In this document: piece after piece, positions 35,341-38,414 of the stretch
Position numbering within the stretch: the first letter of the stretch is position 1
Layout: each line of letters begins with the position of its first letter
Source of the DNA: an uncultured Fimbriimonadaceae bacterium
Lineage (GTDB): Bacteria > Armatimonadota > Fimbriimonadia > Fimbriimonadales > Fimbriimonadaceae
Assembly (NCBI GenBank): GCA_937961665.1
Contig: CALGMO010000061.1
Coordinates: 1 to 52,648 of the forward strand
Direction: 5' to 3'
DNA length: 52,648 nt
Notes under the pieces: generated by a model
What the model was told of the DNA's origin: nothing
The model's database searches: none
Seen by the model: only the letters and a program-made list of their open reading frames with translations
Made by a program: the position numbers and the translations under genes

Positions 35341-35375
35341 CGCCGCGCGATTTGCGCGGCAAAGCTGGAAACCTG

Positions 35376-35384
35376 TGATACACT
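35376..35384 (+). promoter_or_regulatory. Extended -10 promoter of the lipoprotein-pseudopilin unit
   Basis: TGA followed by TACACT forms an extended -10 (TGn-TACACT). The -35 at 17 bp (GCGGCA) is poor. The predicted start of transcription falls inside the operator just downstream. Confidence 0.5.
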
Positions 35385-35388
35385 GGAT

Positions 35389-35414
35389 GCGGAACCTCTC
35401 TATAGAGGTTCCGC
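35389..35414. promoter_or_regulatory. Operator: perfect 11-bp inverted repeat
   Basis: GCGGAACCTCT, 4-nt spacer CTAT, then AGAGGTTCCGC, with no mismatch in the arms. It sits directly after the -10 and before the start codon of the small lipoprotein, so a bound repressor would block initiation. The adjacent GntR-LacI gene is the likely binder. As RNA it could also form a hairpin. Confidence 0.7.
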
Positions 35415-35429
35415 AGAGTGGAGGTGTAC

Positions 35430-35663
35430 GTGGCGAAGCGTGTTGGTCTAGCCTTGGCGTTGCTGTTGGCCGCATTCGGGTGCGAGCGCGACACGAACGT
35501 GATCACTCCCGAGGCTGTCGAGCAGGCGAACAAGCATCGCATCGAGGTCATCGACAAGGATCCGAACATGACCCCCGAGCAGAAGCAGAAGATGAAGCAG
35601 ATGCTCGGGCTCGTCCCCGGCGGCCGGAGGCCCAGCCGAGGTCCGGACAGCGGCACCCGGTAG
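35430..35663 (+). CDS. Small lipoprotein of unknown function
   Basis: 77 residues from GTG 35430, chosen because GGAGG lies 6 nt before it; GTGs at 35418 and 35424 are closer to or upstream of that SD. The signal is [17 protein letters not shown] with the lipobox Cys at 18, so the mature protein would be about 60 residues. It contains [26 protein letters not shown], a charged helix followed by a Gly/Arg/Pro-rich tail. I do not recognise a family. It lies between a perfect operator and a pseudopilin gene 38 nt downstream, and is probably co-transcribed with the latter. Confidence 0.65.
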
Positions 35664-35701
35664 GCCTCCCTCCGTGCACCCAACCATCGAGGAGCATCCC
35701 A

Positions 35702-36640
35702 ATGAAGCATGAACCCATCGCGTCCCGAAGCCGAGGCGCATTCACCCTGATCGAGCTGCTGGTGGTGATCGCCATCATCGCCATCCTGGCCGGCATCCTC
35801 TTCCCCGTCTTCGCTCAGGCGAAGGAGGCGGCCAAGAAGACCCAGTCGCTGAGCAACGTCAAGCAGCTGGGCCTGGGCATCATCCAGTACATGGGGGACT
35901 ACGACGACACCTTCCCCATGTCCGAGTACAACCGAGGGAACCACTACGTCTCCTACGCCACCGAGATCTTTCCGTACGTGAAGAACGGCGACCAGTGGAC
36001 CTCGCCCGCCGGTGTGAAGATGGCGCTCGCGTCCGACGGCATCTTCCGCAGTCCGGGGAACCCGATTCCGCGCCGCGCCGGCCCCAACTCGGGGCAGTTC
36101 TCCTACGGCGTGCACATGTCGCTGTTCGTGAGCAACTACTATGAGGACTGGGCCGGGTTCCCCGGCATCGATACCCCGGCCAACCCCGGCGTTCCGGCAT
36201 CCGCGGTGGACGCGCCCGGAGACAAGGTCATGATGATGGAGAAGGGCCTGAACGACCCCGGCGCGGGTTGGAACTACCCGTTCTTCCATGACTGGCAGGC
36301 CATGTGGGTCGGGCGCATCTGCACCGTGCCCGGAGACCCCTCCACCGTGTTCAGGGACGGGGTCGACGCCTACACGCCGGGCAGCGAGGTGTACACGCCC
36401 TACTTCGACAACGACTGCCCGGCGGACTGGTCCGGCGGTTGGGAGTGCGCCGCGCACGCCCGGTACAGGTTCGCCAAGACCAGCCCCATGGTCTTCGTCG
36501 ACGGGCACGCGACGCCGATGAAGAAGGGCGCCATCAAGTGGTTCCAGAACATCTGGGTCGACCGGCGCAACATCAACCACTACAGTTGGTACTACGACTA
36601 CCTCAACGGTAGCGGCTGGGGATTCCCCGGAATCCACTGA
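35702..36640 (+). CDS. Pseudopilin-like protein (prepilin N-terminus, H-X9-DG type)
   Basis: 312 residues. The prepilin peptidase site reads RGA then [16 protein letters not shown], with Ala rather than Gly at -1 and Glu at +5. The hydrophobic helix is followed by [23 protein letters not shown], then a large extracellular domain with Asn/Asp-rich loops and Cys pairs. The C-terminus has [14 protein letters not shown], the usual motif of this family in Planctomycetes and Armatimonadetes. It could be displayed on a type II secretion/type IV pilus-like system. GAGGAG precedes ATG 35702. A strong hairpin follows the stop. Confidence 0.88.
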
Positions 36641-37501: not shown

Positions 37502-37535
37502 AAAGGCCGTCACCGATTGCGCGGGGACGGCCCTT
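37502..37535 (-). terminator. Predicted attenuator hairpin of the TPP riboswitch
   Basis: Reading on the minus strand, AAGGGCCGTC (37535-37526) pairs with GACGGCCTTT (37511-37502), 10 bp with one G-U. The loop contains GCGCAATC (37522-37515), which is the exact complement of GATTGCGC at the 3' end of the riboswitch (37562-37555). The two pairings look mutually exclusive, giving a plausible switch. The T-run is only TTT. Confidence 0.5.
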
Positions 37536-37555
37536 CTTCCAAAGCGGCCCGACTG

Positions 37556-37639
37556 CGCAATCCCTACGCCGGCATTACCCGGATCAGGTTCAGGGGTCTT
37601 CCCTCTCGGGAACTCTCAGCCTTTCGGCTCCCCCTTGCG
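37556..37639 (-). ncRNA. TPP riboswitch (THI element) aptamer
   Basis: On the minus strand: P1 CGCAA (37639-37635) with TTGCG (37560-37556); P2 GGGG (37634-37631) with CCCC (37596-37593); P3 AGCC-GAAA-GGCT; the conserved CTGAGAG at 37619-37613; an extra TTCCC-GAGA-GGGAA stem (37612-37599); then the invariant CTGATCCGGGTAATGCCGG and CGTAGGGA (37587-37561). These are the most conserved blocks of the class, in the right order. It binds thiamine pyrophosphate. It lies between rsmG and a pseudopilin gene, both on the same strand. Confidence 0.93.
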
Positions 37640-37659: not shown

Positions 37660-37665
37660 ATTATA
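37660..37665 (-). promoter_or_regulatory. -10 element for the TPP riboswitch transcript
   Basis: Perfect TATAAT about 20 nt before the aptamer and 9 nt after the rsmG stop, with no recognisable -35. Transcription would start near 37653, just before the P1 stem. Confidence 0.6.
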
Positions 37666-37673
37666 CGCCCGTG

Positions 37674-38354
37674 TCAGGACCCGATCGGCCGACGACGGAT
37701 CTCGGCCCAGGACCGGGGATACCGACGAGGCGTCGCCGCAACCTTGCGGTACACCGGAAAGACCCTCGCCGCGCCCGACGGCGCGAGCTCCGTCTCCCAG
37801 ACCTCCGCGAGCTCCAGGCCGAGCTCGCCGCAGGGGCAGTCGCGGATCGCCCCGAGGTCGCTCGCCGTGCGCATCGGCACCACGATCCCGCCCACGGCGC
37901 AGGCCGGCGCGCTGAGCTCCAGCTGCACCGCCAGGGGAGCCACCGCCCGGCCGGTCACCAGCCCAAAGCGCTCCCGGACGCCCCAAGTTTCTGCCCGGTC
38001 GCAGACCGGCTTGACGTTCGCCGGCCGGTGCCTCGCCAGAAAGCCGATCATCTTGCCGGAGGAGTCCAGTCCGACCCAAGAGGAGTCCGGCCGCGCGATC
38101 GCCAGAGGCACGCACGGGAAGCCGGGCCCGCAGCCGATGTCCAGAGCCTCGGCGCCCTCCGGCACTCGGGAGTGGATCAGCATGGAGTCCAGAAAGTGCC
38201 GGACCCAGCACTCCTCGCGCGGAACGCGGGTCAGGTTGCGGACCGCGCCCTCGCGGTACAGAGCCTCCTCGAAGCGCTCAAGGGCGTCCAACTGGCCGTC
38301 GTCGAGCGACAGACCGATCCGCCGGCACTCCTCCGCAAGCCGCTCCCGATCCAC
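37674..38354 (-). CDS. rsmG: 16S rRNA (guanine527-N7)-methyltransferase
   Basis: 226 residues from GTG 38354 (VDRERLAEECRRIGL). SAM-dependent methylation of 16S rRNA. EALDIGCGPGFPCVPLAIARPDSSWVGLDSSGKMIGFL is motif I and following, and GRAVAPLAVQLELSAPAC corresponds to the substrate loop. The frame is open farther upstream to an ATG at 38414, but that would run through the divergent sigma-factor promoter region. TAGAGT lies 8 nt before the GTG and there is no SD. Confidence 0.88.
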   Translation of the reverse strand: MDRERLAEECRRIGLSLDDGQLDALERFEEALYREGAVRNLTRVPREECWVRHFLDSMLIHSRVPEGAEALDIGCGPGFPCVPLAIARPDSSWVGLDSSGKMIGFLARHRPANVKPVCDRAETWGVRERFGLVTGRAVAPLAVQLELSAPACAVGGIVVPMRTASDLGAIRDCPCGELGLELAEVWETELAPSGAARVFPVYRKVAATPRRYPRSWAEIRRRPIGS

Positions 38355-38362
38355 GAACCCGC

Positions 38363-38368
38363 ACTCTA
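38363..38368 (-). promoter_or_regulatory. -10-like element of leaderless type (rsmG)
   Basis: TAGAGT, 8 nt, then GTG at 38354; no SD. Confidence 0.4.
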
Positions 38369-38379
38369 CTCCATTCTTG

Positions 38380-38414
38380 TACAGTGAGTGAACGATCGTG
38401 CCCGTCGAGGGCAC
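38380..38414 (+). promoter_or_regulatory. Promoter and leader repeat of the ECF sigma operon
   Basis: TACAGT (38380-38385) is a -10-like element about 48 nt before ATG 38433. GTGCCC-GTCGA-GGGCAC (38398-38414) is a perfect 6-bp inverted repeat in the leader. The gene itself has GAGAGG as SD. Confidence 0.4.

Follow-up and report, generated by a model that had tools for sequence, protein, structure and literature searches.

A TPP riboswitch upstream of a pilin-like gene in Armatimonadota and the predicted helix that buries its Shine–Dalgarno sequence

Few regulatory elements reveal gene function as reliably as TPP riboswitches, since almost all of their targets are genes for thiamine synthesis or uptake (PMC3766115). 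A locus of an uncultured Fimbriimonadaceae bacterium (contig CALGMO010000061.1) raises two questions: what a pilin-like protein is doing behind such a switch, and by which pairings the switch would control it. The whole stretch of DNA analysed, 52,648 nt long, is called the window below; coordinates are those of the window and features lie on its minus strand unless indicated otherwise. The reading preferred here, to which a probability of about two in three was assigned, is that the TPP riboswitch represses a single pilin-like gene in cells well supplied with vitamin B1, by means of a helix that buries the Shine–Dalgarno (SD) sequence, and that the encoded protein serves thiamine acquisition.

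Aptamer and promoter

The aptamer was identified by cmscan as a match to RF00059 at 37644–37544 (model positions 1–105; E 3.4e-11), with a full-model score of 67.5 bits, above the gathering threshold of 54.3. The conserved TPP core was present (CUGAGA and ACCUGAU...GCGUAGGGA), and GGCTGAGAG, ACCTGATCC and GGCGTAGGGA were placed in the aptamer alignment. Stem P1 is formed by CGCAA (37639–37635) and TTGCG (37560–37556). An Rfam search of the 2.88-Mb genome gave the aptamer before the pilin-like gene as the sole TPP riboswitch.

A TATAAT hexamer at 37665–37660, read from the sequence as a probable −10 box, suggests a promoter belonging to the riboswitch itself. In the related leaders, −10-like hexamers were found upstream of 55 of 85, whereas 7.3 would be expected by shuffling. 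A probable rsmG (16S rRNA methyltransferase) gene at 37674–38414, on the same strand, ends 30 nt before the aptamer.

The regulated gene family and thiamine status

The gene behind the aptamer (37482–36712) encodes a prepilin-like protein of 256 aa. Its N-terminal prepilin cleavage/methylation motif scored above the cut-off of both PF07963 (33.8 bits; E 2.2e-8) and TIGR02532 (31.2 bits). The weak DUF1559 match that follows (PF07596; 17.7 bits) stayed below the gathering threshold of 23.3, and no family matched the C-terminal domain above its cut-off. Among solved structures, the match was limited to the N-terminal pilin helix, and AlphaFold run without an alignment gave the same helix only (mean pLDDT 37.8).

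These genomes carry dozens of prepilin paralogues. Orthologues were separated from them with a profile built from 40 riboswitch-linked proteins, by which, within the order, the full-length orthologues all fell below an E value of 1e-94, and the E values of the remaining prepilins all exceeded 1e-41. One orthologue was found per genome, except for two in G038. Prepilins on the contigs of named relatives were also considered as orthologues and were rejected as general prepilins. The C-terminal domain is far more conserved in the family than in other paralogues and contains many invariant aromatic and acidic residues; positions conserved in at least 95 % of 100 proteins include Y71, H82, E86, D104, Y120, Y124, Y128, R167, R170, E172, Y188, Y190, W202 and D213 (window numbering). 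The genome of the window encodes a prepilin peptidase and has six secretin matches, so processing and export of the protein should be available. Genes downstream of the pilin-like gene were inspected as operon partners and set aside: they vary among genomes and none is a recognised thiamine gene. Because they differ in this way, the unit is probably monocistronic.

Two observations concern gene arrangement. A second prepilin-type gene (35375–36640, plus strand) is convergent to the riboswitch-controlled gene and has no TPP aptamer before it. Tandem copies of the pilin-like gene stand behind one TPP riboswitch in G038 (L054), G120 and G131.

TPP riboswitches were collected from 113 genomes of the order. 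Outside family f2, nearly all of them stand before one prepilin-like gene, whose start codon follows the end of the aptamer match at a median distance of 61 nt. In the phylum, the pilin orthologue was present in 136 of 291 Armatimonadota genomes, with a TPP riboswitch directly upstream in 135 of the 136. These comprise all 85 genomes of the order with the family. Of the 51 carriers elsewhere in the phylum, 50 have the riboswitch in this position, as established from coordinates in 34 and by scanning the loci with Rfam in 16; the remaining genome is G167.

Some TPP aptamers of the collection stand before other genes, namely a 580-aa, probably exported protein (L048, G017), a 231-aa protein with a signal-like start (L051, G008) and a 227-aa membrane protein (L018, G039, a family f4 genome without the pilin). 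These are possible further B1 genes.

The distribution of the family was compared with that of thiamine synthesis. The thiC gene was found in 121 of the 291 genomes, and occurred together with the pilin in seven (G113, G133, G134, G144, G145, G157 and, as a 55-bit fragment, G069), against about 57 if the two were independent; relatedness inflates the significance of this difference, but the pattern holds in many separate families. Within the order, outside family f2, thiC and thiE were absent, apart from G014 and a few sub-threshold thiE matches, and thiamine pyrophosphokinase (TPK) was present in most of these genomes. Fimbriimonas ginsengisoli has likewise been reported to lack thiamine biosynthesis enzymes except TPK, and 79 PulG-type pseudopilins were counted in its genome (PMC4072686).

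G014 holds the sole strong thiC match of family f1 (617.6 bits) in a genome with neither riboswitch nor pilin, which could be due to contamination or to retained synthesis. Close to the thiamine pyrophosphokinase gene in L224 and L225 (G019 and G033) lies a sodium:solute symporter-like gene, a candidate inner-membrane thiamine permease.

TPP regulons are made up of genes for the synthesis and for the uptake of thiamine, the latter predominating in auxotrophs (PMC3766115). The family is associated both with the TPP regulon and, through its small overlap with thiC, with auxotrophy, as is characteristic of thiamine acquisition genes. From the composition of TPP regulons we infer that the pilin-like protein serves as a thiamine acquisition factor; conservation of the riboswitch pairing in bacteria mostly unable to make B1 likewise suggests that pilin-like proteins may help to acquire the vitamin. 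A bolder version, given slightly less than an even chance, is that the protein would be the first known representative of vitamin acquisition systems based on pilins. Located at the surface or in the periplasm, it would capture thiamine for auxotrophic Armatimonadota, be derepressed at low TPP and hold the position in the regulon that elsewhere belongs to thiC or to ABC and ECF transporters. Among the papers searched, none was found that connects pilins of this phylum with TPP riboswitches or with the uptake of thiamine.

Less probable, but not remote, is that the same switch controls a protein other than a thiamine receptor. It might be an adhesin by which cells stick to partners producing the vitamin, or a pseudopilin that adjusts secretion or the make-up of pili under B1 shortage. 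Such roles would suit the standard prepilin N-terminus and the peptidase and secretins of the genome, and a role in attachment has been suggested for the pili of F. ginsengisoli (PMC4072686). The invariant aromatic and acidic residues of the conserved C-terminal domain, however, would be more in keeping with a binding site than with a filament surface.

Competing pairings and probable control of translation

The earlier note had described an exact 8-nt complement between GATTGCGC at the 3′ edge of the aptamer (37562–37555) and GCGCAATC further downstream (37522–37515), and the sequence bears this out. Among 20,000 dinucleotide shuffles of the 75 nt downstream, 0.42 % contained a stretch of 8 nt or more complementary to the 12-nt P1 edge (P = 0.004). 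In the RF00059 alignment the TTGCG strand of P1 lies inside GATTGCGC, as had been noticed; P1 and the 8-nt pairing need the same strand and are therefore mutually exclusive. The partner had been placed in the loop of a 10-bp attenuator hairpin. This hairpin was recovered by folding (37536–37501), with a stem of 11 bp (37536–37526 with 37511–37501) and three inner base pairs above it that close a CGCAAU loop, so that only part of GCGCAATC, in the apical part of the hairpin, is true loop.

Conservation was followed in 84 leaders of the order, from which family f2 was excluded because its switch stands before thiC. The inner hairpin was more stable than its shuffles (z < −2) in 71 of the 84 relatives, and GCGCAATC is identical in both congeners (G001 and G002). 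Of 46 leaders with ATTG in the P1 strand, 32 had CAAT downstream, against three of the 38 leaders without ATTG (Fisher 7e-9, relatedness ignored). The anti-P1 pairing was stronger with a leader's own partner than with swapped ones (−11.1 vs −10.3 kcal mol−1; z about 2.4). Two genomes with a different P1 have alternative complements (AGCGGAA/TTCCGCT in G044 and, by sequence reading, GAAATGCG/CGCATTTC in G099). Covariation of the 8-nt pair, which the earlier note had named as decisive, gives a mixed picture: these comparisons were positive, whereas the count of same-branch co-changes of P1 ATTG with downstream CAATC (two observed, 2.5 expected) and the control for base composition described below were not significant. 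It is regarded as a plausible, clade-limited pairing with moderate support. Constrained folding also showed that the 5′ leader GAAAGGCCGCAC (37650–37639) can pair with the 3′ arm of the attenuator, GTGACGGCCTTTC (37513–37501), in the alternative state. This pairing is strong in the window's genus and some others; as a general feature it was rejected, the overall z being only about 2.1.

Folding with P1 forced gave a minimum free energy of −86.5 kcal mol−1 and revealed an outer helix that the earlier note had missed. Its 5′ strand (37555–37539) is directly continuous with P1 and acts as an anti-SD; it pairs with 37498–37480, so that the attenuator is enclosed and the SD sequence GAGGAGG (37496–37490) is buried together with part of the start codon (37482–37480). 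The pairing probability was close to 1 for six of the seven SD bases. When the 8-nt pairing was imposed instead (−85.1 kcal mol−1), the outer helix was open and GAAAGGCCGCAC took the 3′ arm of the attenuator. The two pairings that had been proposed do exclude each other, but in the P1-state fold it is the outer helix that blocks the SD. Since P1 and this helix are continuous, closure of P1 should favour burial of the SD.

The outer helix was also the element with the strongest covariation in the clade. Leaders paired better with their own SD region than with those of other genera (−16.5 vs −12.4 kcal mol−1; z about 7.8; one-per-genus draws, 84 leaders), their own pairing was better in 174 within-genus pairs and worse in 47, and shuffled controls agreed (mean z −1.5). 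This compensatory conservation firmly supports the outer helix as the predicted OFF element. The conserved, covarying architecture over the 84 leaders indicates that the platform is functional rather than a relic.

That TPP would lock P1, leave the attenuator free to form and turn the gene off had been the claim; the predicted OFF direction stands, whereas the attenuator does not hold as the OFF element. Downstream of the hairpin comes TTTCGACC instead of a U-run, so that no intrinsic terminator is seen there; the hairpin itself does not contain the ribosome site, and the outer helix covaries far more than the 8-nt pairing. Because the hairpin is without a U-run and a P1-linked helix buries the SD, the switch of the window is read as translational, and blocked translation is likelier than termination in this leader. 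Transcription attenuation, in which the attenuator would form as an intrinsic terminator before the gene once TPP locks P1, is accordingly judged improbable for the window, and the strength of the SD-burying helix across the clade also counts against it. In its favour, equivalent hairpins of genus g30 carry real T-runs (G102: GGAGTCAGGTTTTTTGTTTTT; G022, G040 and G052), and runs of T4 or longer follow the hairpin in 19 of the 84 leaders. The strong T-runs of genus g30 (L179, L184, L185 and L190) indicate that termination occurs in relatives, and the mode of the orthologous switch appears to vary by genus, between termination and SD burial.

The opposite direction of control, in which the attenuator would compete with SD sequestration and closure of P1 would free the SD, is very improbable. 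A weak local hairpin just upstream of and over the SD (GCCTTT/GGAGGC, by sequence reading) could bury it if the attenuator were broken, but when P1 was forced, the outer helix around the attenuator left the SD fully paired. Most known TPP switches on genes for thiamine uptake and synthesis are, moreover, OFF switches. The remaining alternative, a relic or neutral hitchhiker left by loss of thiC with an unrelated prepilin landed downstream, could draw on the family f2 relatives that carry the switch on thiC and on the abundance of prepilin paralogues, but it is disfavoured to the point of being negligible by a linkage kept in nearly all carriers over many families, by G157, in which the pilin has a switch of its own and another lies near the thiC gene, and by compensatory change that continues in the platform.

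How the OFF switch would respond to TPP would depend on the order in which its parts form. The full-length P1 state was favoured at equilibrium in all three congeners, by 1.4 kcal mol−1 in the window and by 6.2 and 10.9 kcal mol−1 in G001 and G002, and in folds of the downstream part release of P1 alone left the SD closed. Thermodynamic two-state switching was for these reasons rejected as a general mechanism, the energies being near-equal in the window only, and the switch would have to be kinetic. In prefix folds of the window leader without ligand, the probability of P1 fell from 0.8 to about 0 once CAATC was transcribed, and P1 returned only after the complete SD region. Across leaders, P1 was reduced more by a leader's own tail than by a swapped one (P = 2.6e-6), an effect that may reflect base composition, because the cotranscriptional control in which the inner part was shuffled was not significant (P = 0.14).

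The mechanism proposed is as follows. With TPP bound, P1 would close, and the strand after P1 would pair with the SD and start-codon region, enclose the attenuator and block translation. In its absence, the 3′ strand of P1 would be captured by the GCAATC element of the hairpin as the RNA emerges, in the window's genus with the aid of the 5′ leader paired to the 3′ arm; the blocking helix would then form late or never, and the gene would be translated. Its product would be a prepilin-like surface or periplasmic protein serving thiamine acquisition in thiamine auxotrophs.

Significance and comparison with known systems

The helix that buries the SD is the better candidate for the control point of the locus, and the target gene is the larger finding: a TPP riboswitch in 135 genomes points at a class of proteins not tied to vitamins in the literature searched. 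If the reading is true, it would assign a function to one among dozens of Armatimonadota prepilins that lack an explanation, show how B1 auxotrophs of the phylum may obtain the vitamin, and extend the roles of pilin-like proteins in bacteria to nutrient capture. The platform offers a clade with SD-sequestering and terminator versions of one switch in related genomes.

The TPP riboswitch of the E. coli thiM type controls translation by SD sequestration. The switch of the window shares with it the aptamer class, the competition between P1 and an alternative pairing, and an SD buried in the predicted OFF state; it differs in controlling a pilin-like gene instead of a thiamine enzyme, and in burying the SD within a helix that runs on from P1 and has a second hairpin inside it. 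Aptamer class and expected OFF logic are likewise common to the thiC TPP riboswitch of Neisseria meningitidis, in which, however, the target is thiC and control is transcriptional, whereas the hairpin of the window is without a U-run (PMC7237195).

A riboswitch on a type IV pilin gene is also found at pilA1 of Clostridioides difficile. That switch, of c-di-GMP class II, differs in ligand and aptamer, is turned ON by a signalling molecule and controls the major pilin of a pilus operon (PMC6366702). For the proposed function, the bindosome of Sulfolobus solfataricus provides an analogy, as prepilin-type N-termini occur there on surface proteins with a role in nutrient uptake; it is archaeal, is made up of large substrate-binding proteins and is likened to the present protein by analogy, not by sequence (PMC4371748). 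DUF1559 (SBP_bac_10, PF07596) has a similar layout, in that a prepilin N-terminus is followed by the start of DUF1559, weakly matched here; the protein of the window falls below the Pfam cut-off, and its C-terminal domain forms a separate, tightly conserved family.
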